Positions 1,518 through 58,060 of a stretch of DNA of 64,000 bases are shown piece after piece. Made by a program: the position numbers and the translations under genes. Source of the stretch: Apostichopus japonicus (Eukaryota; Echinodermata; Holothuroidea; Aspidochirotida; Stichopodidae); the NCBI RefSeq assembly GCF_037975245.1, contig NC_092565.1:17773999-17837998 (forward strand). Direction: 5' to 3'. Numbering within the stretch: position 1 is the stretch's first letter; each line of letters begins with the position of its first letter. Under the pieces are notes generated by a model. That model saw only the letters and a program-made list of their open reading frames with translations. It was not told the DNA's origin and made no database searches.

Positions 1518-1927
1518 CAGTGGCGGAGCGTCCATACAGTCAAAGGGGCGGATCCCCCCCCCCCCCCTGACGGACTCAAATGGACTGCTGGCGCCCTTTT
1601 CAGCTTTTTCAGCTTTTTACCACTTTTTACTTATTCGCGATTATTGACTTTTTTATTGCGCTCTTAAATACCTATTGACATTTGTCACATTTTGTTGGTG
1701 TAATTTTCTGACAAAATGGCGATGACACCTCTCTATTCTTCGTTTATCTGCAAATTAGCAAGGCCCAGAAAGGGTCATTTCCGGCGATCTAGGGAGTATC
1801 TTTACTCAAAAAGATTTTGTACGCTCCGCGCCAACCTGTGGTGGCGCTCCGCTTAGATAGTGTAGAAAGCGCGCTACAGACCATTCTCGCCCCCCCCCCC
1901 TGACCAATACCCCTAGCTCCTCCACTG
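1518..1927. mobile_element. hAT-type MITE, 410 bp, perfect 8-bp TSD
   Basis: Ends CAGTGGCGGAGC and, as reverse complement of the right end, CAGTGGAGGAGC. It is flanked on both sides by CCAGTAGC (1510-1517 and 1928-1935). Long C runs occur inside, and the shared GC-rich module lies at about 1770-1861. It has no transposase and is non-autonomous. Confidence 0.9.
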
Positions 1928-1935
1928 CCAGTAGC

Positions 1936-2866
1936 CTATATATTCCCTACACCTGTAACATGTTGTGATATCTTTATCGAACAATATACTGTAGGCTATG
2001 TGCCAGAAATCTGCCGGCCCGGCAGAATAAAGAAATGATAGTAATATGAAACTCCCTATGCGACAAGGTTATATATAGGTTACTCAGTTTTTTCAACTAT
2101 AAAGTATGTGTCACAGGCTGACATATAGTCTGTTTTAATATGACAATACTGAAATTAAGTTTTAGCTGTCAGCCGGCTCAAAGGTATTACATGTTCATAT
2201 TATAGTCTTCAATTATAGATAAGTCTTAACTTTGACTGAATTCTAGCTGTATATAATGATCAGGTTTGACAGGAAAGGACTCATTATATAATGACCAAAT
2301 TTAGGAAAGGGGAGTCAGAAAGCCTACCCGACAGAAATTAAGCAAAAATGTGTTTAACTGAAGTATAATAAATTTTGTAGTGAGGTTTTGGTCCCGTTCC
2401 GTGTATTATGCGGTGATATGATATTAAGGTTTTAATTGTCATCGTTAGTAGGCCTATAACCTTTAGTCAAGTCTCTTTTCAAACTTAAGGGCAAATTTAA
2501 AAACAAAAAGTGAAAAATTCCATTTACTAGATCTTTCTGCAGGCAAGAGATTAAATAAATTATAGGTTAAGATCCTGAAAATAGCATAATATAAAGTTTG
2601 AAACATACGGAGAATGAAATATCTTGGTGAACAGGTTACTTTAGGATGGGTATAACATGCCATCAGAAATCTAACGTATAGGCCTACCTCAGACCACCAG
2701 AAATATACCATCAGCTTGCAATCAGAAAAACGATGCCATCAAAACACTGCCATCACCGAGAAATTGTAATATTGTACATCATGAAGCAAAGTTTTCGACA
2801 GAATTTGACAAAACAAATTTCAGTTTCGGAATGTTCAATCACGTACATTATGTTTGTCATACAATA
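1936..2866. other. Intergenic, no gene seen
   Basis: AT-rich sequence without recognisable coding, RNA or repeat features. Confidence 0.55.
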
Positions 2867-2874
2867 TCAAAACT

Positions 2875-3435
2875 CATGGGCGCAGATCCTGGTGGGGACA
2901 GCGGGACGCGTCCCCACCAACTTTTTCAGTGGTGGGGACATGATATACCGTGTCCCCACCAATTTGTCTTGACCAAACGCTGGATTTCAAATTCCCCTGT
3001 ATTAAACTTCGGCGCAGTTTGATCCAGCATTGTGCAAATGACATGCAGCAGTTCTCATTATATTTATCCACAGTTGTTAAATATAGGACGGAAATCGCAT
3101 TTGCGGCAGTCTATAATTGTTTTTCTGGGAGAGGACCCAAGAACCATCGTATACAAAAGTCTACTTGGATTATTTGTCCCCTGATTTATTTTATTCTGCA
3201 GACGCCCATGTTTTTCCCCAAACTAAATTTCTAAGCCATGAGATCTAAAACTCAAGGGGGTTTGGGAGCATCATTGGATCTGGGAAGTGTTATTTCCGGC
3301 GATCTGCAGTGGGAGGTATATTTGCCCAAAAAAATATTGTACGCTACGCGCGAACCCATGGTCGCGCTCCACTTAGATAGTATCAGAGAACAGACACGCG
3401 TCCCCACCATTATCCAAGACTGATCTGCGCCCATG
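2875..3435. mobile_element. hAT-type MITE, 561 bp, 8-bp TSD (7/8)
   Basis: Perfect 14-bp terminal inverted repeat CATGGGCGCAGATC. The flanks are TCAAAACT (2867-2874) and TCCAAACT (3436-3443). It contains internal inverted copies of a TGGGGAC/GTCCCCACC motif and a copy of the shared module at about 3290-3381. Confidence 0.9.
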
Positions 3436-3443
3436 TCCAAACT

Positions 3444-6400
3444 ATACGTTATTTTACATTTCGAGCGTTCGTATATTTATATAAAACATACGGAAAAAAT
3501 TCCCCTCAAGATCACACGCTGTGTCGCGTACTTAAAGGTGCACGTCAAATGTTAACCATCGCGTTCACTGTGACAATTGTCATGTGGTTCTTCTGTGACT
3601 GAGTTGCAGAACCTTTCTTCTGACAGGCCCTAACTTAGCCTTAGTCCTATACTGCTCAGTAAGAAATGAATAATTACCACAAAAGAATCGTTTAATAGGT
3701 TATAGTTACACGAACAATGATCATAATGATGTTATTATACCGGACAAGACCTTTACTAACAATTTTACAATAGGCTATAGCCTAGACTTGAATGCCAGCA
3801 TTTCTTTGACAGGTTTGATATATATCACTTGCATTTTATTATTTACTGTATGAATTGTGATAAACAATTCACATGTTTTGTCTTTCTTCTTCTCTGGGGG
3901 GGGGGGGGGTGGGGTGGGCAGGTGGCGGGGTAAATATGAAAGGGATCACAATTACTATTATTAACATCAATTTGGGCCATACCGTAGTAGACCTATATAT
4001 CAAATTATATGATTTACACGCTTAAATTATTTCCCTCTTAAAAACCTATATAGTTTGATCATGTTGAATACATGTGTTCCATATACATAAATCCTGTAAC
4101 CTTATAACATACAGGAAGATAAATGAACTTAATACGGGCGCGCCAGGGATATGTTTCCGCCCCTTTACGCACCGGCTCACGGTGCTGCATGGATCATCCT
4201 GTCGGGAAGGTTTAGATTTATAGCTAAAAGATCGACAGCCAATTAAACCCATATTAGTTTCGTATACCTCATCACATAATCATGGAAATATCGTAGAAGA
4301 TATTAAACAATCTGATTGGTTAATACACATGCATGACATACCTTTATTAAAACACTTTTAAGATTGCTGGATTTCTTCTATTGGGGAGTATAATTAGGTC
4401 CCAAAGGTTGCCGACGGTTTCCATACCCCACCCCTCACCGTCCGAGTCCCACCGACTCATTTTTGGAAGTGCCATACGTCACTGCTCAAAAGTGCAGCAT
4501 ACTGTTGTACGATAAGACTAAATGGGCTTCTCTGTTGAACCCTATACCGTATAAGAGTGATAAATATAGCCACATACTCTTAACATGCTATATAAAACAC
4601 TATAACAATTGAAAAAGGCTTTAAAAATACTTTCCGTGACTGAGTTTCATACCTCCCAAGCCTTTTATGCGAAACGTATAGACATCATATCTTTGAGATA
4701 TCTCAGCGTAGATAAGTAGTTCAGCATTGATAGCATTGGTGAGCATTTCCGGATTGACACTGTGTTAATTCGGCGCCGAAAGAAAATTTAATGACGATAG
4801 TAGAAACTAAAATGTAAAGGAAATGCTCTGACAGGGGGAAGCAATTACTCCCGATCAGAGAAAAATATGTATTGAAGATATAAATACTCAAATGTAATTG
4901 TTTTGAACCAGCATACAGGTTTTAAAATATCACAGAGTTATTGCTCCCAAAATGCTGATATATTTTAAGTATCCTTCCTATCTATGATTATGATAATAAA
5001 AATGTTATGTTCTCGAGCTGTCTTAGAGAAATCACTCCAGTACACTGTATATTAAAAGGAAAAAGAGAGAAAAGCAAAAATGAGTCTTTACAAGTAAATA
5101 TGATCACATACTTGATCAATGAATATGCAAATTAAACTTGTGTGTGATACACCTTTGAAAAAAGTGTGCAGTGGACCAAAGGAGCAAGGAGGGGGAAGGG
5201 GCGTTAGCGAGCTCTCTTTCTAAATTCCGAATTTCATCGTTTTAATAAAGGTACGGTGGACACAAAAACAGAGACTGTTAGAAAGTTACCCATCATATTT
5301 TCTTCTCGAAACATTTCGTTACCCGTTAAGAAGGTATCTGTTGCCATCGTCGATATATAAAATATTTCTTATGTTTCATCAACACACTACATCATCATTA
5401 CGAGATCGTAGCTTGATTTCAAGTTTATATTTATATCAGTGACTAATGGATAATCGCCACGGATGAACCACATATTCAACTTCTTTTGAATCGAAACACA
5501 GACAATGTGATCCCTTCAGTTAACAAAAACAACGTTCCTCTTGCATATAACCTCTCGAAAACAACTCTGAGGAGTCTGCGATTAAGAAACTGCAGCTTAA
5601 ATTTACTGATTTCCCAGTTTGTAACAATTAACCTTTTGAGATGACGCACTCATTTAATGTACTCCTTATCGATATCTAAATCAGTTTAGTTGCTGGGAAA
5701 TTTCTCTGAGCAAACAATCAGATTTCGAACAAAGGTGCTGTTATAATAAACTACCCTGTAAGTAATGAAGGACAAGGATGCGGTATTTGCACAAAGCTTA
5801 ACTTCGACGTTACCTGCGGTTGAGTCAAAATGTAAGATATAAATGTCAGATATTAAGTGGCGGTTTTGTATAAGAAAATAAAAGATAATACTCGATACCC
5901 CATACACCGGAGTCGATACAAATGGGACCACTCTCCTTCATAAACTCCCGGATCAGCTACTATACATGTGCAGCGCGCCTGCGAGGGTCACGGCTATATA
6001 GACACGACCCTGGCGTGTGTTCTATCAGGGCGCCCTCATTTTCCTAGGCATTTGTTTTCGTTTTGTCATGAAAGTATTTGAGGGCTGAGGAGCCGTTGGT
6101 CGGCGTTCGTGCGTAACTACCACTCCTATATAAGACATGAAGCTCGTTGCCCTCTTCGAATTGGAAACAGCAGTGTTATGTTCGTATGACCGTATAATGC
6201 ACAGACTAAACTGATACTGAAACAATTTAAAAGTGCTGATATTTTGACAAAGAATATCCGGGGGAGGGGGAGGGGGGTTGGTGTGGAGACAAGCCTGATC
6301 GAGATGTACTGCAATGTACAGCTCCTGCAGGTTAGCAAAATGATAACAATAGCAGAATAGTATAGGGAATACAGTGGGAGTAAAGAATACAATCATTTTT

Positions 6401-6506
6401 CAGATTGGAGGGATAAACAACCACAATGCAAAAATGCATTGTAATTTCGATGATGTAACATGAACAGTTTTCTTCATGAATCTGAAGTAATGTTTAGTGA
6501 GGGTGT
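3444..6506. other. Intergenic, no gene seen
   Basis: AT-rich non-coding DNA with a poly-G/GGTGG tract near 3895-3935 and a G-rich stretch at 6258-6280. No exon-like block with splice signals and family similarity was found. Confidence 0.55.
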
Positions 6507-9705: not shown

Positions 9706-9902
9706 TCATTTTTGCTTGCTCTTCCGGTCTTTCCCGGTAAGCATCTTATTGATGTAAGCCTCTTGCTGGATTCTGATGTTGACTTCATCGATTTGTTTTC
9801 GGTGGTTTTGTTTCTGCTTTGAGATTCTCTTCTTCAAGTCCTGAATTTTGGTTTGATTCAGATGGACGAGGTTCTCTTTCTGTTGCTTCTCATAAGCGAT
9901 CA
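9706..9902 (-). CDS. SPATA24: SPATA24 coding exon 5 with stop
   Basis: 197 nt, residues 135-199 and a TGA stop at 9708-9706, with a CTTTTACAG acceptor. It is lysine/glutamine-rich coiled coil with the conserved ISKQKQNHRKQIDEV and RIQQEAY motifs and a basic C-terminus (DRKSKQK). I saw no convincing AATAAA on the minus strand close downstream. Confidence 0.88.
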
Positions 9903-15520: not shown

Positions 15521-15529
15521 CTAAATTAG

Positions 15530-16334: not shown

Positions 16335-16544
16335 CTAAATTAGTTAGTCCTAGGCATGCACATAATGCAGAGAGATTTGAAGATCAGTATGTAGTACTAG
16401 GCCTATAGACATATTGTAACAAATAAATAAAGAGTCCAGTTACAGGGGATTATATTTGTCACTACATCGAAGTGTATTTATTGCCAAACTTCTACAGAGT
16501 CTTACCAAGATAACAAAAAACATCTCGTCTTTACAAACTCTTAA

Positions 16545-16897
16545 AGGCATTGAAGACTCGCCCCAAACCGTGTGCGGCCATCTGAAAAAGTTAACTTTCT
16601 GTTGCTTGCAAACTTGTGATGTTTTGTTCGTGTTGCTACAAAATGCAGACAGTAATGAAACGTGATACCTTGTTATCTTTAGCTGGACCTGAGATGTCCA
16701 TCCCTGTATCGTTTGTATACTGTGCTGTGGGTATTGACCGCAGCTGTCTGTACTGACTGTACACTAGTGTCTAATTACCGACGGTAGCAAGCTGTGTGTG
16801 TGTGTATTTTCTGGGATGTCTAACACTGTTACACCTCATTCGAAACTAGGTCAGATTACTGGCATTAGATTTCTTTTTGCGCGAGTCTTCACATCCT
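16545..16897. mobile_element. TTAA-flanked MITE, copy 1 (353 bp)
   Basis: Bounded by TTAA at 16541 and 16898. Inverted ends are AGGCATTGAAGACT and AGGATGTGAAGACT (reverse complement of the right end). It is similar along its length to the copy at 20609. TTAA target sites and AGG ends fit the Kolobok or piggyBac superfamilies. Confidence 0.83.
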
Positions 16898-16901
16898 TTA
16901 A

Positions 16902-18032: not shown

Positions 18033-21000
18033 GTACAACGGAACAAAATCACTGTTTTTATGATGAAGCCTAGAAATACATTTAACACTTACTGTAGATA
18101 TAGAATATAGCCGTAAAGTGTGAAATTTTAAGTGTAATTGTATAATTATATTGCAGTGGACAATCTCCATCGAAGTGTAACAACAGTTTGGGATGACTAC
18201 TGTACTGTCCATTCTCCATGTGCCCCTGTAATGAGATAGTAGCATTGTGCTGTAGTGCAAATTACACACAATCGGTAGTGTTGCAACATGAATCCCGGTA
18301 TCATATCTACTACCAGGATTTTCCTCAACATTTCATCTAGGGTTCAAAGCACTTAACTATGAGACTGTCTTTCATTTAATGGAGTAGCCTAGGCCACAGC
18401 ACTGTTACAAACGCAGGATTCTGCGTCCGGGACGCAATGTTTTGGCCTGGGACGCAAAATCTTCTAATTGCTTGCGTCCCGCTATTCACATAGGCCTACT
18501 GTAATTTTCGTAGAGATGATTGTTTGCAATGAGCCTAGCACAGGATAAATGTTGGATCAGGTTTTGAGGATTTGCGCATATGTACAGTAGTTGAAAATTA
18601 AGTTCGAACAGGCCTATGTATACAGTAACTGTACAGTGAACTGTGTGGATTTTAGCGAGAGATATGCACACTTTAGTTATGTACAGGGATTTTTGAAGAG
18701 TTGGTTGTTGGAATTGCTGCAAGGTCAAAGCACGGAGCTACTACTAAGTACAGGCACTAAGTACGATCGCGTCCTTGCAACTACACTAGTGAAAGTAGAT
18801 CATACAGTAAACGCAATTGGTGTTTGATCGGGACTCAACCTTTTTTTTTAACGGGACGCAAACTTTTTTCCATCACAGCATCAAATTTCAAGTACCATAC
18901 TGCACTGTGTGTACCCGTACCATACCCTAGGCTATAATAATACACAGTCCCGTGCAAAGATTGATTTAGCTGGATATACATGTACTCCCTGCAGTTTTGA
19001 CTCAAAATTTATTAAATCTTTATAATTATTAAAAAAGAGGTGAAATACATGTGGTAAAATTTTATACATGGGGAACCTTCACAATCATCGTATGAAGGAA
19101 GAATAAGTAACAAAAATTTCAGAATAACTTTTAGGTCCTGCAACATGCTAAGCACAAGTAAGGTTAGATATTTGGTGTAGCCTAGGTCCAAATATCTATG
19201 TGAAAAGTTGATTCGTTAAATTATACAGTAGGTCTAGGTACAGTAGTTATGTTATTCAAACTAAGAACACAGACACCAAAAATAACGAGTTTTCTTTTCT
19301 TTATTTCAAATAGTAACACATAGTTATTTTTATTATGTCCAGGATTCCAGGGAATGATACCCAAAAGAATGTAATCACCGGTTCTTTTCCCACTTCCAGT
19401 AGTATTTACACATTGCACTATGATCGGGACTAGTCAATACCGGGAATCGGGATACCGGGATTCACTTGACTATAAAAAATGAAATTTGAAGATAATTCTT
19501 CAATCTTTACACTGGACACAAAATAAAAAATGAAAAGCTGAGCTGATTCTGTATTTAAGAAACCTACAGTAACACATAAACAGCTGTTTATTGGAGAGGG
19601 ATGAAATTGACTTGGTTTATGAAAACTTGCGTCGTACGTTTCGAGTCCACTTTTGGGAAAAATAAGGACGATAGACTACGGTAGCTGTCAAAATTTCAAG
19701 ATGGTTTTGTACAGTGATTTGTTTGTAATGCTATGTATGGTAAAAAGGTATGTTAAGTCAGGTAATGAAGTTCCATCCCAGTTTAGGTCCCCAGACATTG
19801 CCTAGGTATAGCACCTGACAACTTTTTGTTAACAGCTTCGATTGGATAGATTGGCAGTTGGCAGAGAATAATGAAATTTCTCACCTAAGGCCCCAAGGAT
19901 TTCCAATTTTGAATATATATCCACAATAAGTACCTACAGTACGTCAACCTAAGCCATGCATTCTGAGTACATTCATTCATACTTGTATACTATAGATGAA
20001 CATACTGTAGCATATAGGTCTATATATACTGTATACAGTATGTATTAAGGTTTGTTTCCAAAGCCTTGAGTATTAGCTACCAGTATGTATATTATACTTT
20101 ATAGTACAGTACATGTGTAAAGCCGTATAAGGCTTCTTAACCTTGATTGCTATAGAAGACCTTTATTATAAACATTTAAATTTTAAACATTTTGTGAAAT
20201 TTAAAGATTTTGTATTTTGGGAAAAACCACACGTATTTATGCACATATTTCACCTTTTAAATTCAAAGTTGGTCTCATTTGAGCTTAGAACTGTCCCTGT
20301 AATTATTGAAACTACAGTATAAAATGTTTCCCGAAAGGTAATCAGGGCAGAATCGAATAACTTAGCATGCATAGACTCCTGATGTGTGACCCGGTTAATT
20401 GACTCTGGCTTTGGCTTTTAGTGCAACGTTTCTGTATGCTGCCATGTTGGACGAATCTGACCGTAATAGTAATTACTGACTTTGCGATCCACGATGAAGT
20501 AATTTTGCCAAACCTGTAGTCCTTGGTCCCTTTCACAATTTTGCAAGATCCGTAAGAGTGACTCCATAGTTACCAAAAAGGGAACGTTTCAATTGATTCC
20601 ATTTTTAAAGGCATTGAAGACTGGCCCCAAACCGCGTGCCAAGCTCTGAAAAAGTTAACTTTCCGTTGCTTGCAAGTGAAGTTTTCTTCTTGTCGCTACA
20701 AAATGCAGACAGAATAGTGAAACGTGATACCTTGTTATCTTTCATCTAGACCTGAGATGTCCATCGCTGAGCTATGCACAATGTGTTGTGGGTATTGACA
20801 GTAGCTGTTTGTATTGACTGTACACTAGTGTCTAATTACCGATGGTAGCAAGCTGTGTGTGTATTTTCTGGGATCGATGGTGGTGTCTAACACTTCTGTT
20901 ACACCTCATTCGAAGCTAGGTCAGATTACCGACATGAGACGTTTCTTTGTGCGCGAGTCTTCACACCCTTTAAATAGCCAATATGGTACAGTCTGGACTT

Positions 21001-24000
21001 ATTTGTAAGGCTATTGTCTAATCTTTTGGTTGGAAAATCCCATATGTCTTTGATCCTAGAAAAGACTGGGGTTTACCTTTCGGTTTGTTCTGCTTCCTTG
21101 CATTATCAAAAAGAAAGCTAACAAACAAAAAAATGTACATCAAAAGAAAGCTAATGTGTGCATAGTTTGCACCTCTGCTGTACAGTGTACAAGATATGTG
21201 TTGTAAAATGTCCTGTAAGGCTTACAGCATACGTTCTAAATGCTACATGTTATGTTCACTTCTCTTCCTTTCATTCGTACACTGTCTACATGTACATTAC
21301 TGTAGAATATGTTCTCTGAAATGAGGTCTTAAATAGCTCATATTAAATAAATGTGTGTACTTCTGTATAGAACTGCATCTTTTTAGTTCTCTCCCTAAAC
21401 AAATTTTGTTAAGTACTTAAAATACCCTGGGAACTATAGGCCTGCCTACCTGTCTGTGTGTAATATAATGAATCGCTTGGTCAAATGATGAAAAGTTAAA
21501 ACCCAATTGTGATGTAAGTTGCAGCTACGCAATTTTACGTATTTGAAAGAGCATAGATATTCAAATTTCCTGTACCAAATGAGCTATCAGACCCATAGTT
21601 GGTGGAAATCCTTACTTATAACCATTTCTTAGTGGGTTGGGTATGTTAGGGGGGGGGGAGGGGTGTGTGATCAGTTTGAAGAGCACTGCTCTTGTCATCC
21701 TGAGGTCATTGGTTTGAATACAATCCAAGCCAAGAATTCTTTTCACGTTCTAAGTTTGTTTTGAACTCTTCAGTCACGTTATTGTTTCGATATTTAATTA
21801 CAGCTGCAAGATGTTTTTATATGTCATAACAATTTTTTTTTGCATGATAAACATTGCCTTAAATACTTAAAGAAAACAATTCTGTCAGACTTTCATGACA
21901 TTCCCTCTCGGATAACTTTGGTGGACCACAGTCAGACTATAATCACCAAGGAGGTTCTCCATGTTAAGTGAACTTGAAAATTAGAAATTTATACTAATTT
22001 TATAACCACCTAGTTTTAAGGAAATGTTGACTAATTATGAAAGAATAAGTCTATTAATCCCTAATAATGTACTTTACATGTGCAGGATATACAGGGACTT
22101 GCATCGGCTTTGTTTTTTAAGAGTTCTCTTCCGTTTGGGTTAAATAGGTCTACTTCATTCTTCATTCGCAATTTGTATGTTTACAATGAAAGATCTATTA
22201 CGGACAACCTACATTACTGTTTTAAAAAAGGAACAACCATTCTACTTCTACTGACTAAGAAGATGAGTTGTGGGGTAAACATTGCTTAAAAATATTCTTT
22301 AATTTTCATGTCAAGGTGATTGAAGAACTTATAGAAGAAGAACAAATCCAAGAGGATTTTGATGATATGATGGCAGAAGAAGAAGAACATTACAACAATT
22401 CCATCCAGATACTTCCTTACGAAGAGGAGATTGATACAGAGCTGCCAGACGAAGAACCGTCGAGGTCACAGACAGACGATTACGACTCGGTCCAGACGCA
22501 GCAGGACGAAACTTCCACGGTGATTCCAGAGACGACAAACAACGTCCCATGGAGCAATGAAACAAACGAAATATCAACAGTAAGTTTTGATGACGCTTGC
22601 AAATGTTCTTGGCAATTGAGAATTGATTGTTCAGAGTTATCATTTTTAATGCTTAACACCTTTTTTTCTTCCAGCACAGCTGTTTAAGGTATATATTACA
22701 GAGCTTTATATAAGGCAGTCATACATGTTTATCAACATTGCTTACGAACTTTATTCTCTGGTTTTTAACTAGAAAAGGTAGAAATGGAATGAAATGGATA
22801 CACTTTGGTTTTGTCTTTTTTTGTACAAGAGGGCATTGGACACAGTGTAGTATTAGAGTGTATGTTGTTTACATTCAGTATGTGTTTGGTCTGAATAACA
22901 ATAGCCTTTCTTATCTTACCAATCATTTGTTGTCGCAATAGGTGAAATAAAAGGAGAAACAGAAAAAGACAAATTTAAAAAAATATAATCTGATATAAGG
23001 CATATGTTGGTCAACATTGCTTACTGACTCTGGTTTTAAACTAGGAAAGGTAGAAATGGAATGAAGTGGACACTTTCTTTTGCTATAAGAGGGTAGTGTA
23101 GAGGACACAGTTTAATATAAGACCTGTCTGTTGTTTGTCTTTGGCCTGAATGACAATGGCCTTTCTTATCTTACCAATCATTTGTTGTCACAATAGGTGA
23201 AATAAAAGGACAAACAGAAATAGACAAATTTCCTGGAAATAAAATCTGATGGGTCTGTCTGTAGTATAATATTGACAATACTCAGGGGCGTAGCGAGCGG
23301 GGGGGGGTGTGGGGGGGTGTCACACCCCCCCAATAATTTGGTCTCTGTCGGCAAATTTTGGGTCTGTCGGCAAAAGGAGAAAAGGTGAAGAGAGCGGAAG
23401 GGGAAGAAAGAAGGAAAGCTGAATAGAGAAAAGGAGAACGGGAGCTTCTTCCGTGCCAAATTTGACTTAAAATATGCACCAGATTCCATCTAAGGACGTT
23501 TCAAAACTAAAAATTTTCCAAAGGGGAGGGGTAGACCCCCTACTCTTAGACCCCTCCCCCATTTCAGTCACCACTTCCAGATCCGTCGGCAAATCAAATT
23601 TGACTTAAAATATGCACCAGATTGCATCTAAGGATGTTTCAAAACTAAAAATTTTCCAAAGGGGAGGGGGAAACCCCCTCCCCTTAGACCCCTCCCCCAT
23701 TTCAGTCACCACTTCCAGATCCGTCGGCAAATCAAATTTGACTTAAAATATGCACCAGATTGCATCTAAGGACGTTTCAAAACTAAAAAATTGCCAAAGA
23801 GGAGGGGGAAACCCCCTCCCCTTAGACCCCTCCCCCATTTCAGTCACCACTTCCAGATCCGTCGGCAAATCAAATTTGACTTAAAATATGCACCAGATTG
23901 CATCTAAGGACGTTTCAAAACTAAAACATTTTCCAAAGGGGAGGGGGAAACCCCCTACCCTTAGACCCCTCCCCCATTTCAGTCACCACTTCCAGATCCG

Positions 24001-26994
24001 TCGGCAAATCAAATTTGACTTAAAATATGCACCAGATTGCATCTAAGGATGTTTCAAAACTAAAAATTTTCCAAAGGGGAAGGGTAGACCCCCTACCCTT
24101 AGACCCCTCCCCCATTTCAGTCACCACTTCCAGATCCGTCGGCAAATCAAATTTGACTTAAAATATGCACCAGATTGCATCTAAGGACGTTTCAAAACTA
24201 AAAATTTTCCAAAGGGGAGGGGGAAACCACCTCCCCTTAGACCCCTCCCCCATTTCAGTCACCACTTCCAGATCCGTCGGCAAATCAAATTCTCCACACC
24301 CCCCCAACAAAAAACCCTTCGCTACGCCCCTGACAATACTGATCATGTTTGGGATGATTGTGATAAGTGTAGGGTTATGCTTTATGCAAGCCTTAATTAG
24401 TGTTTATATACTAAACAAATACAGTCCAAACATATACAGTAGGACTGCTGTTTACTGTACTGAAGAGGCACCCTGCTACATTTGCTCGCTGGATTAATGT
24501 ACTTACTGATCATTAATGATAAGTGCAGTAGCTTCTGAAACAATTAAATGCCAGACATTTTTTTCTTGCTAATCACAAAACAATGCAATCTCTAGAAAGA
24601 AAACAAAACTTGGAAGACTTTTGCAGGCGCGTAGCGAGGAATTTGCCAAGGGAGGGGCGAAACTGTAAGCAAACTATCAGAGCCATAGCCACCATGCGTT
24701 GGCACGAAGCGTACAAGAAAAGTTTGGCTGAAAATGCCTCCCAGATCGCTGGAAATGGCGCTTCCTAGGCCTTGTTAGTTGCATCTTAGCATTTTCTCTT
24801 TTGAAATTACTAGCGATATCATAAAAACATACAAACAAAATAAGCTCAATGGGGGAGGGCTGTCCCCCCTTCGCCCCCCCTGGCTACGCACCTGGACTTT
24901 TGGTTCATTAAATATTGGATACGAAAGTTGATGACTCATGCATACTACTGTACACTGTTGTGGGGGTCTAGTGTCAAATAACACTAAAAAATGTATCACT
25001 TGAAGCAACTCAAATATATTTGCTTTGCCTAGAGCTTTGGTACAGTATGATTTTATCCGATGAGGAAGTATTAGCTAATGTGTTATCTTTTTCTACATGT
25101 ACTGTATGAGTTTACCAGATACTGTAAACACAGCTCAATAACTTTAACTATATAGTTGAGGTGACTACTGTTTCTTTTCTTCTCTGTATTAAAACAAACA
25201 GTGAAGTACAGCTGCAGTCTGTACACATATATATCTTACAATACAGTATGCATTCAAATGAGCTGTGCAAACATTACTATGGTGCATATTCTTTAGAATT
25301 AATACTGACTGTAGTATAATATTAAGACAACAAGGTCACAATGTATATATTTGGCCTTGAGTTGGTGTTCAGTTTGTAGTGTAGGCGCAGCCTGTGGTTG
25401 GCCCTGGATCTGCCATGACCTTTAACTTTGATACAATGGTAACAGCTTGATGCAAGTTTGCGGATTTTCTTCTAGGGGAAAAAAATCTAGTTCCTGATTG
25501 GTCATTGCGAGCATGGGATCTGATACCGCACACTGTGTCTAGTACTGTATATAACTGCGCAGGGATTCAAAATCAATTTAATGCAGGAATACCGAGCACA
25601 GGGACTGATCTGTAATGTAGTCGCAGCTGTATACGCTCACATAAAGTTTGATTATATTAATAGTACTGTAGTATTGAACTATATAGTACATGACAACAAG
25701 GTCACAAATTCACAGTAATGTATGTATTTGACCTTGAGCTGTTTTTTGCAAACAATGTATATTCACAACATTTTGCAATTCTACAATGTATTCTTTGACA
25801 TTTCAATATATTTATGATCATGGTAATATGTTTGGAATCAAGGCATGATATAATGTGTACTGTACACAATATTATTCACTTACAAACATGTACAATATGC
25901 TATGGAGCCAGCATACTGTACCATATCAAGCAAAGAAAAAGACAACTTTGAATCACATCACATGAGAAGCAAAATTGCATTCATAGTCAATTGGAGAGGT
26001 GGGGTAGGGTGGGGTAGGGTGGGGGTGTGGTTGTAGTTGAGTTCAGACTGACACATTTAGTAAGTATGTCATATATGGATGCACTTAGTCACGGTGAAAT
26101 GGGAGGGGATGGGGGAGGAGGGTTGGAACAGTACAGAGGGGAAGTAGAAGTTATGGTTAAATGGAGTAGAGTAGGAACAGCCATGTGGTTGTAAGAATGT
26201 AGTTGTAGTGATACGGGTCGTAGGTATTATGGGATAAAAAATAATACTAAGTCATTAAACTGCAACTCACCAATTACAATTCATACAGCCTCTTGACTAT
26301 TTACAGCAGAACTTCCAAAGTCAAAACATAAAAAGGGGTCCGGCACGAAATATATTTAATTATAACAAAATATATAAATGAGGATTCAAACAAGTAATTG
26401 ATCGTGACTTTCCAGTAAAGGAAAGATAAGTGGCGAGTGAAAGTTCCAAGGAAAAATGCGTCTTTACAGTAGGGTATTAGAACAAAGATGAGACCATGTT
26501 AAATAAACCTCTATATCTCGCAGAACCACGTGGAAAAGTTGTCATGAATTCCCTTTCTCTGAAGTCGTAATACAAAGGCTGGGTCATTCATGACTCAGAG
26601 GGGTACACCAGAAGAACTACAAAGTAGTGGGGGCGCGTACTATCGATATAGCGAAAACTACCGTGATAGTATTGCGTCACTACATGGGTACATCTGCTGT
26701 GGCATTTGTTGTGCACTAGTATTAAAGTCCTTAACTACACTTGATACTAAACTGTTATGGTTTGAAAATGAACAGAATTTTCTTGAGATATTACACTTTT
26801 CAGGATGCTAACCCTTGTAAATAAAATAAATAACATATTTTTTTTTGTGGGTTTGCACATGTGGCAACACAACCAGATGTACATACTGTACCTATACATA
26901 CATTAAGTGTATTAATTATCTTGATTTTTTTTTTTCTGTCTTCCAGGACATTTCATCTGACTCTGATTCTGAGGGAGGAGGACCGCAAAGATGA
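17952..26994 (+). CDS. PAIP2: PAIP2 homologue, PABP-interacting translational repressor (whole gene, 3 coding exons)
   Basis: Coding exons are 17952-18032, 22316-22579 and 26947-26994, all phase 0, 393 nt, 130 aa (human PAIP2 is 127 aa). The N-terminal block DPFAEFMWMEEQDAFD followed by EELIEEEQIQEDFDDMMAEE matches the PAM1 region of PAIP2, the acidic segment that grips the RRMs of poly(A)-binding protein and displaces it from poly(A), repressing translation in the cytoplasm. The middle is acidic and disordered, and the C-terminus ends in SSDSDSEGGGPQR. The second PABP-binding site of human PAIP2 (PAM2, LNPNAKEF type) is not found before the stop. ATG choice: MLTVMDGN lies seven codons before the conserved block; an internal ATG four codons later is possible. 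A likely 5' UTR exon boundary is the TTCTTCCAG at 17898-17906. SPATA24 is divergent upstream. Confidence 0.9.
20609..20969. mobile_element. TTAA-flanked MITE, copy 2 (361 bp)
   Basis: Bounded by TTAA at 20605 and 20970. It lies in the same orientation as copy 1 and shares the internal CGTGATACCTTGTTATCTTT and TCTAATTACCGA stretches. The two copies differ by substitutions and short indels. Confidence 0.83.
21663..21731 (+). pseudogene. tRNA-like remnant, probably tRNA-derived SINE fragment
   Basis: GATCAGTTTGAAGAGC resembles a decayed D arm and ATTGGTTTGAATACAAT a T arm (4 of 5 pairs, 7-nt loop). The middle resembles an anticodon arm but pairs poorly. It lies in PAIP2 intron 1 and is not a functional tRNA. 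Confidence 0.45.
22316..22579 (+). CDS. PAIP2: PAIP2 coding exon 2 (rest of PAM1, acidic linker)
   Basis: 264 nt, residues 28-115. The acceptor is a TTTTCATGTCAAG tract and the donor is GTAAGT. The glutamate-rich EELIEEEQIQEDF and MAEEEEHY stretches finish PAM1; the remainder is rich in D, E, T, S and Q. Confidence 0.88.
22700..23250. repeat. Diverged tandem duplication, two units of about 260-280 bp
   Basis: TCAACATTGCTTAC recurs at about 22732 and 23010, and TTACCAATCATTTGTTGTC at 22917 and 23173. Units include the GGTAGAAATGGAATGAA string and end with ATAAAATCTGAT-like sequence. It lies in PAIP2 intron 2, just left of a hAT insertion. Confidence 0.85.
23283..24332. mobile_element. hAT-type element, 1050 bp, perfect 8-bp TSD
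   Basis: Perfect 14-bp terminal inverted repeat CAGGGGCGTAGCGA, flanked by ACAATACT at 23275-23282 and 24333-24340. Most of the interior is a 138-bp tandem array. No transposase remains. Sits in PAIP2 intron 2. Confidence 0.95.
23455..24291. repeat. 138-bp tandem array, about 6 copies, inside the hAT element
   Basis: TTCAGTCACCACTTCC recurs at 23563, 23701, 23839, 23978, 24116 and 24254. Units are nearly identical, differing mainly in the GGGGAGGGGG-AAACCCCCTCCCC inverted stretch. Confidence 0.95.
24624..24894. mobile_element. hAT-type MITE, 271 bp, perfect 8-bp TSD
   Basis: Ends CAGGCGCGTAGCGAGG and (right end reversed) CAGGTGCGTAGCCAGG. It is flanked by GACTTTTG at 24616-24623 and 24895-24902. 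It carries the shared module in reverse orientation at 24673-24760. Sits in PAIP2 intron 2. Confidence 0.93.
25999..26025 (+). repeat. G-rich quadruplex-type tract
   Basis: Four or more G runs in the pattern GGGGTAGGGT repeated twice, then GGGGG. Located in PAIP2 intron 2 on the coding strand, so it could form in RNA as well. Confidence 0.6.
26947..26994 (+). CDS. PAIP2: PAIP2 coding exon 3 with stop
   Basis: 48 nt, residues 116-130 and TGA at 26992-26994, after a long polypyrimidine tract ending TTCCAG. It encodes DISSDSDSEGGGPQR. The frame after the stop contains a PAM2-like string (see findings). It is spliced in phase with exon 2, but I cannot exclude a further exon between them. Confidence 0.75.
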   Translation, partial: DISSDSDSEGGGPQR

Positions 26995-27712: not shown

Positions 27713-27783
27713 GCGTCCATAGCCTAGTGGTTGAGGTGTTCACATATAAAGCGGGAGGTCCGGGTTTGAATCCCAGTGGAGGC
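27713..27783 (+). pseudogene. tRNA-like sequence, degenerate or tRNA-derived SINE head
   Basis: A box TAGCCTAGTGG and B box GGTTTGAATCC are intact. The acceptor stem pairs 6 of 7 (GCGTCCA with TGGAGGC), the D stem pairs with one wobble, and the T stem has one mismatch. The anticodon stem is weak (two wobbles, one mismatch) around loop ATATAAA. A T-rich then TA-repeat tail follows, which favours a SINE over a working tRNA gene. Confidence 0.6.
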
Positions 27784-27831
27784 TAGAAGTTTTTTCACTG
27801 TTATGGATTTTTCAACTCACTACAATTTCAA

Positions 27832-27832
27832 T

Positions 27833-48200: not shown

Positions 48201-49433
48201 GATTAGGTTTATGTCCTCTTTAAGGCGAAGACAAATTCATCTACGAAGGAGTTTGTGTCAAAGCTTTGGAGATAACACAAGTAACCACTTAAGACATTCC
48301 AAGAAAAGCAGAGAGAATCGTAAAATTGACATGTTGGTCTATGTCTTTGCTTTCATATATCAATTATACCTTTGGCTCTAAGTTTTGATGTCGCCATCAT
48401 CTTTCAAGCAGTTCGAAAAAGCTGTCAATACTTCACTGATAATCAAATTGGAACAAGTTATTACGTTTTGTTCTGTTTTTACAGGCTTAAAGGATTGTCG
48501 CTGGAGATTTTTTTATCGGAAGGAGAAGGGCCTTGAGGTGTCAAGAGCTTTCCACCAAGAGACAAGATTATGAAACCAAAAGACGCTTAAGAGTGTTTAT
48601 GGCAAATTCTGAGGCAAAATTATATAGTCTTTGTCTGAGACGGTCTAGTGACTACGATGTGGCTGCGAATCATTCATTTTAAGATGTGACTTGCATAACT
48701 TGTTAAACAAACACAATGATCAAACCACCAGCTTCTTTTCTTTCTTTTTTGGAGATATAAAACTATATTTTGAAATTTATTCATTTTATTTGCATGCATG
48801 CATTACGCGGACTACACCAAAAACTCCCTTTGTTTTGTATGAAAATATAAATGTAACCCTGGGAATTTTTTCAGCTGTATGACGTGAGTTCACGGGAGTG
48901 AGGTACGACCACGTTACTTTATCCAAATCAAACAGTGATAACGATTGTGAAGGGGTTTATCTGGATACAAAACCAGTTTGATGTGTTGTCGATGAATGAC
49001 CAGGGACTTCAGCCCACTTTGTTTGACGTCACAAATTAGTAAACGATGCACTGATGCAAATAACTTTAAAAAATTCTGATTTTCATATTTCACCAACGGA
49101 TAAAGCTATCAAGATCTGATAGTCTGCGGGTAACTGTTATATTGTGGGAATGATTTAGAAGCAAAGTTATCAGAATTTGAACACGTTTTGATTTTGTGTT
49201 CACTTATTTTAAATCATTGAGTGATGTTTGGGTACATCCCGGATCAAATTATTTAACTATGTCGATCTATAAATATCAGGATAGTTTTCTGTTTTCTCAT
49301 TTAAATTATATAAGAATTGTCTGACTTCACATCAAAGTCTCGGTAAAAGTTACAGTACCAGTAAATGACTGATTCCCTCAAACGTATATCGTTATACTAT
49401 AGGATATTAAACCACTCCCAAATGTTTCAAAGT
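45251..49433. other. 3' UTR and gene-free flank of the R3HCC1L-type gene
   Basis: AT-rich. The first 0.5-1.8 kb is probably 3' UTR. The remainder shows no exon-like blocks; a short poly-G run lies near 48168. Confidence 0.45.
47057..47062 (+). terminator. Candidate polyadenylation signal for the R3HCC1L-type gene
   Basis: This canonical AATAAA lies about 1.8 kb after the stop codon. It has a T/GT-rich stretch downstream and fits a long 3' UTR. An ATTAAA at 45711 is the nearer alternative. Confidence 0.3.
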
Positions 49434-49441
49434 ATATATAC

Positions 49442-50087
49442 CAAGGGCGGCGGAATCGGGGGGGCACAGGGGGCACGTGCCCCCCCACTTTTCCTCAGGG
49501 TTAAAAATGTGCCCTTTTTCTACATAAAATTTGAGGTGTCTCAAGTTAGCAAGAGGCCAGGGAACCAGAATGAACACTCGGGAAGGGCCGTTTCCGGCCA
49601 TCTGAGGGGTTTGTAAAACCAAAATTTTTCTTGTACGCTCCGCGCCAACCGATGGTGGCGCTCCGCTCAGATAGTCGTTCATACAACTTTGCAAATCCTG
49701 GCTTCGCCCCTGACTTTTAATGAATTTATGTGGGTCAAACTCAAAACTATTTCGAATGGAAAAAATTTGTTAAGATATTAACAAGAAATAAACTCTAATT
49801 CGGAAGATTCCTACATTAGCAACTAGCATGATTTCACCTCATTTGTCTCAATAGAAAACTTGTTCCTTGTTTCCCAATTTGCACATTGGATATCGCAGTG
49901 CTAGTATGCATCTTTTCCTTGAGGGGGGGGGGGGCGTTGATGGAGTGATGTGTATACGCAAATAAGATAATACAATAAGAGTTATAAAGGGTACTAAATA
50001 TCAGGCTACATCAGTCCAATCGAATTTCTGCAAAGTGCCCTTTGATGTCGGTGCCACCCCAGATTAAAAGTACTTCCGCCGCCCTTG
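49442..50087. mobile_element. hAT-type MITE, 646 bp, perfect 8-bp TSD
   Basis: Perfect 14-bp terminal inverted repeat CAAGGGCGGCGGAA, flanked by ATATATAC at 49434-49441 and 50088-50095. It contains the shared module at about 49588-49675, followed by AT-rich filler. Confidence 0.95.
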
Positions 50088-50095
50088 ATATATAC

Positions 50096-52682: not shown

Positions 52683-53759
52683 TTGCCCTGTGAAACGTAA
52701 AACTACTTAACAAGCTTGAATGTCCTCTCAAAAAACTTTTTTTCACAACAGGAACAGTCTGTCATGTGAAACAAGTTCATCATTTAAAACTGATGTGTGT
52801 TACATTTATGACCAGTTGCGATATATTGAGGTCTTACAAACAGAAAATACTAAACACACAAGTATATCCATAACGATTGACTGGACTAACCAGACTACTC
52901 TAATGGTTTCGCCAAGGTTTCGCCGAGGTGTTGTGACAAGGAAGGTTGGGGTGGGGAGTTGTTGGTACAGTTTTAAACAATTCTTGTCACAAAAAAAGTT
53001 AATATAACATCATCAAAAACAAATCTTAGGAGGAAACTAAATTAATCGAGTATGCACGTAGCGTTACTGCAATATTAAAAAAAATGCTGTACGGTCAAGT
53101 TTTGTCATCCATTTTGTTATACTGGTAATTTTCCAAACCGCTTTTTCAATGCCCGAAAAAACGACTTACAAGCCCCTCATTTTCCGCCCAAATGATTTAT
53201 AACAGTTTTGCCTCCCAGATCAGAAGATTAATCAGGTCTAGTTTGAACTCCAATGTTTTGGCGTCATAATATTACTTTTCACTTGATAACCATTAGCTAG
53301 AGCCGACCCGCCATTTTGTTTTTCTTGATATTGCTGTACTGGTAACGGTCCTACTGCAGCTATATAAACCAATTTAATAACTACAAACGCTATGGTTGGT
53401 TTACCACCGTGGCCTCTACGTACCATTATGAACTTCATGACGCCTTGTTGTCTAGTGAGCTCTTATACATTTACCTTGTTGTGGTACCCTGCAAGGAGTT
53501 TTGGTCACTGGGAAACTCGTGTAAGTTCCATGCTTTTGAAAAGGGTAGAACTGTTTAGCCTTTAAATTACGAAGAACATGTGCTCGAGGAGTATTCGAGA
53601 ACTTTGAGTAAATTTGACGTATCTATATTAAAAGTATGACACTTTTAGATTTTCTGTAAGAGTATATATGTTTTCATATTTAGAACAAAACACACCATTA
53701 TGTAGCTGCTGGACATTACATTCCCATCTTTCGTTATCTTTGTACTCGCATTGCTAGAC
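52683..53759. other. Gene-free stretch
   Basis: AT-rich, no recognisable feature. Confidence 0.5.
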
Positions 53760-54290
53760 AGGGACGTGACGAAAGAGATGATTAAAAGAGGGACAAAGAA
53801 TAATACAAGAGAGAAAATAGGAAGCAATATCGCTAATTGACAGTACGATGGAAAGGTAGAAACAAAGCAAGGTTGGGGGGAAATACGGATGTGAAGAAAT
53901 ATAATGTAATATAAGGAGTAGAGGAGATGGAAAAAAAAAGAAAAATAGTTACAACAGAGAATAAAAATTTGGTGAGAAAAGAGGAGAGGAATGGAGAGGA
54001 GCAAAGGAATGCGAAGGAAGCAAAGAACATTATAGAACAAAAAATGGAACATAATGGAACAGAACAGAACACAAGCTAAATGAGCAGAAATTCGTAAAGA
54101 ACAGAAAAGAGATGAACAGAAAATCAAAGAACCGGAGAAGATAGGAAAAGAAAGATAAGGAAATGATAAGATAAGGATTAAAAAACGAGAAGAATAAGAA
54201 GAGGAAAGGATGGAACTGATAAGAAAGAAAGAAAAGAAAACCAAGATAAAAATCAGCAACAAATATTCATACAAGAAGAATAGCAATAAC
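53760..54290. repeat. Long purine-strand tract (A/G-rich on plus strand)
   Basis: About 530 bp in which the plus strand is overwhelmingly A and G, with loose GAA, AGAACA and GGAAC repeats. The minus strand reads as a hydrophobic open frame only because of this composition. Confidence 0.85.
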
Positions 54291-56621
54291 TTAATAATGG
54301 CAATTAGCAAAGGAATATACAGAACAGCATATCTAACAAATAAGGTCAACATAACAAGCCGATTTAATTTTCAATATTGACGCTAAGATGAAGTCTAGTA
54401 CTTTCCCTTGTACTGACTACAGCTCTTTCGTAAGGGTTAACAGAAACGCATTAAGACAGGACGTAACGTTATGTGCCACATTCCATGACTGAGGATCAGT
54501 TTTTTTAAATCAATTTGGCGTGTTTAAATGGTTTAACGAATCCAAATAAATCTTTGACCAAAGGGGAAAATCGGTTCGCCTTGAGCAACTAAACTAATAG
54601 AAGCATAAAACTAAATATGAACAAATATTTATTCGAAAAGTTGGGGCAAATACTCCAACTTTTCACAAAATATTGGTACTAGTATAGCCTATACAGATCA
54701 AACTTTACATTATGTTACGTAGGGTAACGTTTTCATCGAATTTACCCCCTGGCGCGGTTCCGCGGAAGGGAGGGTGTCTGCGCGCGTGCGTGTGTGTGTG
54801 CCCGTGTGTGTATGTGTATGAAGCGCTATGATTTTTTTTGGGGATCACAAAAAGGATCATTGAAAAGGTTGCATATTAGCTACTAATGGGAAAATATGCA
54901 TTGTTAGTTTCATCATATCATATCCAAGGCAAAATAATCCAAGTTTGTTTGCGTCATCATGAATTTTAAAATGTTACAAAGCGTTAACTATATATCGTTG
55001 GATTTGGAAGCTCAAAGGATGTAAACATCTGAATGCATTAGACTCAAACACAATAAATATGAAAACGACCAAAGGCAAATAGTTCTCACTTTCTTCATAT
55101 GAGGAAGAATGTTGTTGTCGTATCCATGTCATGGAGGTTTGCTTGTTGCTATGGTAATCCGAACGATGAGAGTGTAATAATGGAGACATAAATATTTGGG
55201 ACTGAGTGTTATTCTCTCCAGAATATTTTTCCTACGTTTTTCAATGATAAAATATTTCAACCGTGAACTGTTTACATGATAAAAAAAATGAAATGAATCG
55301 TCTTGCTTGCCTTGCGAGTGATTCCCGACAGCACGTGTAACATCCATGTGTATAAGTAAAGGAAAATACATGTACAATAACGTTGTCTCTTGTCAGCCGA
55401 TTCACCGTACAGAGATAACAGTAATTATAACTACTGTAAATCTTAAAGCTTTGTACCACAGTTAAAACTGGATTGTGCTAACAAATCTGATAAATCGGTA
55501 GCATGTGCCATTAGGATTACAGTAAGAACTGAAGATATGTGTAATGCCAACAAATTCATTAAACTGGATTTTTTTTTGGAATTACACATATCATCAGCAT
55601 ATGCTACTGATTTTTAGCACGATCCAGTTTGTACGTTGGTACAAAACTTTAAGATTTACAGTAGTAACTGTGTTCTCTGTATATATCGGGTGGTCATGTA
55701 ATAAATGACGTACGCCATCTGCATATGGAAGCATTAAAGGGGTATGCCGGTAGTAGACGTTGCGACATTGACACAGAGAAGATAAGATAGACCACACTAT
55801 ATAAGGCTAATTGAAAACCTCGTCTCGAAATCTTGTTCCTAACTCAAGATATGGTTGATAAAATGGCACCTATACCTAAATCACTGTAATAATGGCAAAT
55901 GTTCTTTAAAAGCTTTGCTTTTCTATTGTACTGTTCTTGTTAGTTTATCATTGAAACCTGTTACATGTCAAGACTCAATGTATTTAAAATGTCATCAACA
56001 TGCCCAGTTTTCGTAGAAATATTATTCTCCTCTTCGATATTAAGTCAGTTAATTTATTATAAATAAACACAAGAATATTTTCAGCTAAATTGCCGTGATG
56101 AGTCATTTACTCTGCTGTTGTTAGATGCAGTCAAATATGAATTATGAAAATTATTCATCATCAAGATACGTTCAATCAACATCGTATATAATCAATTATT
56201 AATAAAGATCAATATATATATCGTATCAAGTCTTTTATGCCTAAAATTAGATTCGATCTAGAAACGCTATATTATATCTGCTATAAAAGTGGTATATATA
56301 TATGTTTACCATCTGTTATAATCCGTAACCGATAATCTACCATCGACAACATGTTTTCTCACGACAAGTCTTTCATATAATGCCATAAATATTATACAAA
56401 TGAAATGAATATTACTGAAAGTCACATGTTGGTCAATATACAACCACTGGCTTTCTAGGTTAATACCGAAGCTATATTACTAAAATAGCATAGATGAACG
56501 GCGATATTTTGACCTATTATCACAATGAAGAAATCTGGATGCCAGTAGTCTGTGTAAGTAAATAACGATAATGAGATAATAATTGTGAATATTCTCGCTG
56601 TTTCGGTGCGAATATCATGAA
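54291..56621. other. Gene-free stretch
   Basis: Contains a GCGCGTGCGTGTGTGTG simple tract at about 54778-54818. The 55.9-56.4 kb part is very AT-rich with many homeobox-type TAATTA words, but nothing definite can be called. Confidence 0.5.
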
Positions 56622-57295
56622 CAGGCGCGTATCCAGGATTTTCTAACCCGGGGGGCGCGAATTACTATCTAAGCGGAGCGCCACCATCGGTTGGCGCGGA
56701 GAGTACAAGAAAATTTCTGGTTTTGATACCCCCCAGATCACCGGAAATGGCACTTCTCGGGCTTGAAAATGAGCAACCAGATGTAGACTTTTGCCTGAGA
56801 TTCAAGTATTTCCCAAAAGTTTTTTCCATCCATAACCTTTTTGAAGATTGTCACCAGTCACACATCATGTTCGACCTGATTGCATGTCCTATGGATGATT
56901 GCTTTGTAGGTTATTCTACGTCACGGCCCACAATATCTGAAAGCCCGACTTTTCAAGGTTTTAAGCCCATTACTTGTTGAGAATTTGAAAATTCACTTTT
57001 TTCGTGAATAAAATCACTTGAAAACATACCCATAATGTTGCAGAAAATTCAATCTATAGACAACCAATATAGAAAAACCTCCTTGAACCCCTAACAGACA
57101 GGTCAAAATTGAACGAGTAGAGGAAAGTATGATGAAGAATGTTGGTGAGGAAATTTTGGAAAATTCCGACACAGTTAATTTATTGGTGTAGAAATATTGC
57201 AACCTCTTATAATGGCTTTTACAAAACTTGGTTGAAGGAACAGAAAAATAGGAGATATTTCCGATATCAGGTATATCGAAACCGAACACTTCACT

Positions 57296-57725
57296 CATAG
57301 GCGTAGGTCCCGTAGGAGGCGGGGGCTGCAGCCCCCCCCCCAATTGTTTTCCCATTTTTTCGGGCACCTACTGAAAGAAAAATAAATAGCAATGAATAGC
57401 TTAAAATGATCTCCTTGGTAATTGAAATAAAGTTGTAAGCTTGGCCGACATTACTACTGTAAAAGAGAGTTTTGACATAAATGGATCTGTATGGTTTTTC
57501 TCCATCTACATAAGACATTTGGTTTTTTACATTAGCATCCGGCGGAATACTGTGCAACTTTGACGGACCGTGCGGTACACGATGCCATACAATGTAATGA
57601 GCGATCTTGCCTATTTGATATTGGCATCGACATGTTGAATGCGCGCTCCGCGCGCGAAAAATTTTGGCTTTTTTTTCGGGCAAGTCATTACAGCCCCCAA
57701 ATCCAATCTGGCTCCTACGCCTTTG
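57296..57725. mobile_element. hAT-type MITE, 430 bp, degenerate TSD (6/8)
   Basis: Ends CATAGGCGTAGG and (right end reversed) CAAAGGCGTAGG. Flanks are ACTTCACT and ACTACACA. It includes a GCGCGCTCCGCGCGC palindrome near its right half. Confidence 0.7.
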
Positions 57726-57826
57726 ACTACACACATTGACAGTTTTTGAGGCTGTTCATCGTGGAACATGCATTTCAATGCTCATTGATATGATGTTATA
57801 TCTGCTCTTTGCTTTACAAATTCGAA

Positions 57827-58060
57827 CAGGCGTGTAGCGAGTAATTGCCAAGGGAGGGCGAAGCCTGTAGGCAAACTATCTAAGCGAAGCGCCACCATGA
57901 GTTGGCGCGAAGCGTACAAGAAAAATTTTGGCCGAAAATGCCTCCCAGATCGCTGGAAATGACACTTCCCAGGCCTTGTAAGTTGCATCTAAGCATTGTC
58001 TATTTTGAAATTACTAGCGATGTCATAAAGAAAATTTGCTCGGGGGGGGGGGGGCGGTCG
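57827..58060. mobile_element. 5' part of a second copy of the 24624-type MITE
   Basis: Starts CAGGCGTGTAGCGAG and follows the 24624 element closely through GCCAAGGGAGG, the shared module, CCTCCCAGATCGCTGGAAAT and TTGAAATTACTAGCGAT. Similarity is lost in a G/C run near 58040-58070, so the right end is missing or displaced. Confidence 0.8.

Follow-up and report, generated by a model that had tools for sequence, protein, structure and literature searches.

A GC-rich block near one end of hAT-like elements with different tips and target-site duplication lengths in Apostichopus japonicus

Families of miniature inverted-repeat transposable elements (MITEs) are usually defined, and assigned to transposases, by their tips. 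Why, then, do hAT-like elements with different tips carry one and the same internal block? The question is raised by a 64,000-nucleotide (nt) stretch of the Apostichopus japonicus genome (assembly GCF_037975245.1, contig NC_092565.1, forward-strand positions 17,773,999 to 17,837,998; here referred to as the window), for which inspection of the sequence had suggested six copies of a GC-rich module, each in its own hAT-like element. An nhmmer profile built from the six copies scored each of them at 110 to 131 bits, values that are high by construction because the same copies trained the profile, and the next-best match in the window at 3.9 bits. The repeats between the copies were also recovered by an unsupervised search (D8, D10, I1-I3). 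All six copies are thus real, as predicted, but they lie in five elements and not six, with copies 5 and 6 in one composite (Table 1). The homologous block measures about 103 to 110 nt, from about CYCGGGAAG to AGATAGT. We put the probability at about 0.53 that the module is a cis-acting subterminal block that is kept by selection on mobilisation and has been passed between hAT families.

The module is not confined to the window. An exact 20-mer from its core, TTGTACGCTCCGCGCCAACC, has 2985 matches genome-wide (1480 + 1505), and a degenerate core pattern, GCTNCGCGCCAACNNNTGGTGGCGCTNCGC, has 11,743 exact matches (5929 + 5814) in the 671.6-Mb genome, while the reversed-pattern controls for both gave none genome-wide. 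The abundance of the module is therefore far above chance. Twenty arbitrary 10-kb stretches held two full copies and one partial copy (24 bits), so the window is richer in the module than the genome average. Exact-pattern scans of viral contigs returned no matches.

We sorted 72 module copies by their right flank into 11 groups of hAT-like elements (A to J and Z), with three strongly diverged copies (K, F2 and F3) left outside. The right tip lies 34 to 76 nt beyond the module end in the eight families A, Z, C, D, G, H, I and J, each measured on a single representative, and the module has a single orientation. Family B is the exception: its module belongs to the right half of a nested Z element and is followed by a relic of the Z right end. 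The window copy of B (element 4) holds this right part of Z; about 130 nt separate its module from the element's left end, and the seeming right end beside the module is the nested relic, at 49694-49712. Whole carrier copies measure 271 to 1963 bp. The longest stop-free stretch in nine of these elements is 154 codons, and by this length a transposase frame was judged absent.

The carriers differ in the length of their target-site duplications (TSDs). We searched 31 sequences (the window, loci selected by the 20-mer and two random loci) for CA...TG ends flanked by an 8-bp duplication matching at 7 or more positions, with at least 9 of 16 terminal bases matching. Most copies of B, D, G and H have an exact 8-bp TSD, among them a second family G copy (L012, CCAAATGA), and I matches at 7 of 8 positions; in these five families 11 to 15 of the 16 terminal bases match, as hAT-type CA...TG terminal inverted repeats (TIRs). 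The same search found no 8-bp duplication around the family A composite of the window or its five relatives. By eye, five of the six A copies with both ends seen have a TSD of exactly 5 bp (ATGAA in the window, TATAG in L034, TATAA in L049, TAGAG in L001 and TATAA in L004); it fails in the sixth, L055, whose right end is damaged. A complete Z element of 543 bp (L008) is bounded by TTTGT on both sides. Carriers therefore span a 5-bp class (A and Z) and an 8-bp class (B, D, G and H, with I at 7 of 8); hAT elements with 5-bp duplications are called hAT5 in a passage of PMC12730594. Families E and F are known from one copy each, with tips that lack a confirmed TSD, and two-sided limits and TSDs were established for the families other than C, E, F and J. 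TAATT would fit both sides of two further possible A-type elements (C4:9972896/9974447 and C8:29193498/29195438), and a third (C3:23596382/23598483) fits 6 bp (TAATTA) better than 5. These last cases are weak because the pattern itself demanded AATTA near the tip and the hits were paired by distance.

We compared the divergence of the module with that of the tips. Across ten families, represented by one copy each, the mean pairwise difference was 0.169 for the module and 0.401 for the 16-nt right tips, in line with the predicted greater conservation of the module, and the two sets of distances were uncorrelated (Mantel r 0.06, p 0.40). B was omitted from this test because its module came with Z, and K, F2 and F3 for want of tips. 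Without the single-copy families E and F, the values for the remaining eight were 0.187 and 0.382 (r 0.14, p 0.33). Within the limits of these families, this outcome speaks against one ordinary family with diverged ends. Conservation is also uneven along the module: between families, core columns 65-104 differ by 0.066, versus 0.298 for the HP2/spacer part. Considering that 48 of the loci were chosen by the exact 20-mer, which lies in columns 63-82, we repeated the comparison on columns 83-104, which differ by 0.085, versus 0.314 for columns 39-62. A core evolving about four times more slowly than the adjoining spacer requires some constraint.

In a maximum-likelihood tree of 35 of the 72 modules, the 8-bp family D groups with Z, B, C, E, F and J (98/94 support), apart from the 8-bp families G, H and I and from the 5-bp family A. 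A tree that holds D, G, H and I together is nevertheless not rejected by the approximately unbiased (AU) test (p 0.162), so the module tree alone does not prove exchange across TSD classes. The limits of the similarity are sharp in a blastn comparison of Z with all loci, in which D, E, F and J match only Z nt 403-512, at 86 to 90% identity. The AU result would also suit plain common descent, in which a single old hAT lineage let its tips and TSD length drift and the block is its slowest remnant, with no exchange and no present function. All tips except those of F and J are variants of a CA..GGCG..AG-like theme, and the block keeps the same place and orientation, as such descent would predict. 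It would have to accommodate, on the other hand, two TSD lengths, the uncorrelated tip and module distances and the slow core, as well as the two cases of B and of C and Z described below, and we consider it quite unlikely.

The possibility that the module had been swapped between families by recombination, raised in the original prediction, was supported in that blocks, tips and whole elements are found reshuffled. Nesting is seen directly for H in A, G in D and Z in B, and the G element nested in D has its own module and its own duplication, CCCTTACT. Two modules 1.1 to 1.2 kb apart, as in the window composite, occur also in A copies L001, L004, L034, L049 and L055, whose left sides were read. 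In B, the same ends (88-92 and about 165-170 nt, 91 to 93% identical) enclose interiors with or without the module; the module-free form, at the L054 locus, is 893 bp long, and its interior holds the left part of Z. Allowing up to two mismatches, the B junction to the module-bearing interior was counted 1697 times and that to the module-free interior 244 times. C and Z have Z nt 62-529 in common, the module included, but in C a segment of about 52 nt that ends in a different tip replaces the last 14 nt of Z. At one locus (L031, C1:1915203-1916502), three modules of the same orientation follow one another at intervals of about 205 nt, and two of the three have diverged strongly.

Module pairs that have their sub-types in common and share one orientation also recur along C1, about 0.7 kb apart at 680633/681337 and 5199914/5200630 and about 0.89 kb apart at 288964/289862 and 2239791/2240683. 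These are probably further two-module composite elements.

The original prediction had also listed, as one possibility, a regulatory or insulator sequence selected within the elements. Within families, using copies compared without the 20-mer (six of B, five of D, three of A and seven of G), module and remainder differ by 3.9 versus 5.1% in B, 2.4 versus 3.7% for the own module of D, 5.0 versus 3.7% for the G module nested in D and 8.8 versus 7.2% in G; in A, the own module differs by 1.6% and the nested H module by 1.9%, versus 5.4% for the rest. The module is thus below the rest in four of six comparisons and above it in two, and resident copies show no consistent extra conservation. A regulatory, insulator or silencing element selected by the host and riding in transposons would explain a high copy number together with a conserved GC-rich palindrome, and it would fit the three A copies, in which the difference in either module is about a third of that in the remainder; the nested H module was not selected by the 20-mer. 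With B and the own module of D below the rest, but G and G within D above it, the consistent slowing that host selection should produce is missing; this weakly contradicts such a role, which we regard as very unlikely. We take selection to act on source copies during mobilisation and not on resident copies, with the A figures as a reservation.

Base pairing within the module was assessed with a structure of 27 pairs drawn from the same sequences, consisting of two small hairpins, an outer helix and a GC-rich hairpin. When 16 representative modules were aligned without regard to structure, 89.6% of cells paired, versus 36 to 47% with slid partners. The covariation score was 0.205; shuffled alignments gave 0.151 +/- 0.013, none of 500 reaching the observed score, and slid partners gave no more than 0.117. 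Double changes that preserve pairing occur in helices 1, 3, 4 and 5; in module copy 2 of the window, for example, GCGCG/CGCGC replaces GCGCC/GGCGC. Other measures are closer to the controls: seven pairs have a double change, versus three to six when slid (reached by 16 of 500 shuffles), 14 cells have one, versus 3 to 13 when slid, and further pair types were as numerous in 262 of 500 shuffles. G.T cells number 55 versus 11 A.C cells (13 versus 8 pairs). RNAalifold alone returned the GC-rich hairpin with a different 5' helix and a covariation term of -0.2. Base pairing is likely in the GC-rich hairpin and suggestive in the rest of the structure, and the signal cannot tell DNA from RNA.

These data bear on the possibility that the block encodes a structured RNA, or folds as one, in the strand with the core TTGTACGCTCC and spreads like the highly conserved domains of short interspersed nuclear elements (SINEs). 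The fold would comprise a hairpin CCGGGAA/TTTCCGG, followed by an outer helix ATCTGRG/CTYAGAT that encloses both a small hairpin, GGTTT/AAACC, and the GC-rich one. The extent of pairing, a covariation score above all shuffles and slides and double changes in four helices are in keeping with this, and an excess of G.T over A.C is expected for RNA in that strand. In contrast, the fold was drawn from the tested sequences themselves, which favours it, the double-change counts and further pair types lie near their controls, RNAalifold supports only the GC-rich hairpin, and palindromic DNA sites would also covary. Rfam gave no match on the module, either at the gathering threshold over the window, where only a tRNA elsewhere reached it, or at E values up to 10 in 49400-49760, where four weak matches all lay off the module. 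We know of no SINE highly conserved domain (V, Deu, CORE or others) that fits the block, and we consider the structured-RNA reading unlikely.

A coding origin was rejected, since the HP2/spacer indels between families are not all multiples of three. Similar minus-strand open frames occur in two window copies (YLSGAPPSVGAE), with a stop, by eye, in the family H frame. On the reverse strand, the loop of the GC hairpin in H, I and K reads GCCACCATG or GACCATGG (by eye), a context like that of a start codon, which is followed by a frame of about 20 codons in the window H copy; other families have ATC or ACA there. This is probably chance.

The reading that we prefer, a block selected on mobilisation, would work as follows. 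The non-coding module lies subterminally, on the right, in numerous non-autonomous hAT elements, and its GC-rich palindrome GC-TCC-GCGCC-A-ACC-N3-GGT-GGCGC-TCC-GC, together with the surrounding bases, may form a binding or assembly site, either for a dimeric protein on double-stranded DNA or as an extruded hairpin. Such a site would raise the odds that hAT transposases pick up the carrier element, and our leading guess for its role is a putative transposase-binding enhancer, an option that the original prediction had listed and that is compatible with the data. If the block tolerates changes of tip and more than one transposase group, amplification of its carriers could leave the core nearly fixed between families while the tips drift or are replaced. 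Spread into new families would proceed through nested insertions, deletions inside the nests and exchanges of tips, the routes that we infer for the individual exchanges, and could have brought the block into at least two TSD classes, of 5 and 8 bp. A more far-reaching version, which we offer tentatively and hold to be somewhat unlikely, is that the block itself parasitises transposons, as a mobility cassette, structured and non-coding, that is transferable across the 5- and 8-bp transposase groups and spreads any element that carries it.

Transposases that might mobilise the carriers were sought among 633 candidates for the hAT dimerisation domain (PF05699), of which 150 matches were scored, 19 of them in open frames of 473 to 804 amino acids (aa). 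No autonomous carrier of the module was found in the 450 nt downstream of ten transposase domains. Likewise, within 0-6.68 Mb of C1, a stretch for which strict-core matches were listed in full, no strict core lies within 5 kb of the scored matches at 914997, 1198075 and 3292180. A hAT element with an open frame of 772 aa (C22) ends in GGCGCCCCCCCCATTGGAAAATCCTGGATACGCCCCTG, similar in sequence to the last 38 nt or so of A, which is a tip of the A/Z type; the 450 nt read from this element contain no module. The best downstream match to the module (L087; 6.4 bits, E 0.025) is a short likeness, GCGCGGAGCG..GAAAATTTTGG, in the 3' end that follows an open frame of 801 aa containing a hAT dimerisation domain. 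On its 3' side, L087 (C5:1731229-1731678) is 81% identical along 101 nt to the module-free element nested within element 5, and it is the likely autonomous partner of that nested element. At the centre of the GC hairpin, one of the two has GCTCCGC where the other has GCGGAGC, which looks like a flip of the palindrome.

Several results weigh against a block selected on mobilisation and passed between families. The module occurs in none of the ten downstream stretches, only two of which visibly reach a transposon end, and was not seen in the left ends examined. Different transposases, making 5- and 8-bp duplications, would all have to profit from one block. Choosing 48 loci by the 20-mer inflates the conservation of the core, the AU test leaves D, G, H and I free to form one group, and the A figures, from three copies, oppose selection on source copies. 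The ratio of 1697 to 244 B junctions has other possible causes (length, age and the counting of a single module-free interior), and at least two of the 244, at the L054 and L057 loci, lie within C composites that carry the module anyway.

We compared the block with known systems, drawing on excerpts of the papers cited. The closest case is that of the CMITEs of Acropora corals, piggyBac/TTAA MITEs that are about 100 bp long and have an internal region of 75 bases, which their authors suggest may act in transposition, with possible cross-mobilisation (Wang et al. 2010, PMC2872659). As here, CMITE families have different TIRs, an internal region more conserved than the TIRs and nested or composite elements; unlike CMITEs, the present carriers are hAT elements of 271 to 1963 bp in two TSD classes, with the block near one end in most families. 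Their TSDs of 5 or 8 bp vary in sequence and are not the TTAA duplication of CMITEs, and a 60-base CMITE probe did not match the block (best 8 nt, E 2.6). Four stretches of the block, looked for as text, occur in no open-access paper, and among the open-access matches listed, judged by title and start of abstract, only the coral work reports such a phenomenon. Here the phenomenon recurs in hAT elements, with two duplication lengths and a different, asymmetrically placed block.

Other precedents cover parts of the pattern. The V highly conserved domain of SINEs sits inside the MER6 DNA transposon (PMC6887750), where, as here, a conserved domain of about 120 bp entered another class of transposon by insertion and multiplied with it; whereas V has a SINE source, no source outside hAT-like elements was seen here, repeat libraries not having been searched. 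hAT transposases bind subterminal motifs besides the tips, and the two ends differ (Herves, Ac, Tol2 and Tag1; PMC3143072). The block likewise adjoins the TIR at one of two unlike ends, but those motifs are short and belong to one element each, whereas one block of about 105 nt is common to many families here. In the rice Stowaway MITE Ost35, internal sequence outside the TIRs raises transposition in yeast (PMC3660474). The present block, too, is an internal MITE sequence, with a candidate role in transposition, although Ost35 is one Stowaway family assayed in yeast and the block is known by its sequence from many hAT families. The coral work did not settle where such a region comes from or what it does (PMC2872659). 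With the present carriers it becomes possible to test whether an internal sequence governs the amplification of particular non-autonomous elements, and to follow how nesting and tip replacement carry a block from one element to another. If the block is a transposon parasite, it would be the DNA-transposon counterpart of the SINE highly conserved domains.

Table 1. Carrier elements, module copies and a nested module-free element in the window (position 1 is the first letter of the window)
Feature	Positions	Strand	Details
Element 1, family G	1518..1927	+	Tips CAGTGGCGGAGC / CAGTGGAGGAGC; 8-bp TSD CCAGTAGC on both sides (TSD/TIR search)
Module copy 1	1760..1863	+	nhmmer
Element 2, family I	2875..3435	+	Tips CATGGGCGCAGATC; TSD TCAAAACT/TCCAAACT (7/8)
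Module copy 2	3278..3383	+	nhmmer
Element 3, family H by itself	24624..24894	-	Tips CAGGTGCGTAGCCAGG / CAGGCGCGTAGCGAGG; 8-bp TSD GACTTTTG on both sides
Module copy 3	24671..24773	-	nhmmer
Element 4, family B	49442..50087	+	Tips CAAGGGCGGCGGAA; 8-bp TSD ATATATAC on both sides
Module copy 4	49572..49678	+	Inside the Z-derived interior of element 4
Element 5, family A composite	56622..58433	-	Tips CAGGCGCGTATCCAGG / CAGGTGCGTATCCAGG; 5-bp TSD ATGAA
Module copy 5, A's own	56662..56764	-	42 nt from the A tip; nhmmer
Module-free hAT-like element nested in element 5	57296..57725	-	CAAAGGCGTAGGAGCC...
Module copy 6, H-type, nested in element 5	57873..57977	-	H tip starts at 57827; nhmmer

The module-free element nested in element 5 has a perfect 8-bp TSD, TGTGTAGT, in L034, L049 and L055, which has diverged in the window copy. 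A further module-free hAT-like element occupies 23283-24332, with tips CAGGGGCGTAGCGA and the 8-bp TSD ACAATACT on both sides, and has in its interior a 138-bp tandem repeat, seen as six overlapping register copies of 300 nt at 138-bp spacing.

Many left ends have, inside the tip, a G-run and a GC palindrome (seen among A, B, D, E, G, I, Z and the element at 23283). The letters differ (GGGGGCACGTGCCCCC, GGGGGCGCGCGCCCCC, GGGGTCCGGACCCC and TGTAGGCCCGGGCCTACA), so that palindromy is kept and the sequence is not. In 16 of 24 left ends, several of them from the same families, no more than 7 of 300 shuffles gave an arm as long as the observed one of 7 to 11 nt; this test was failed by two G copies, by H and by some module-free elements.

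Elsewhere in the window, 16541-16883 and 20605-20953 belong to a longer sequence that is present twice, at a distance of about 4.06 kb, its copies being 84 to 90% alike in three stretches, and 27713-27784 gives a tRNA-like match to Rfam RF00005 at 36.4 bits.

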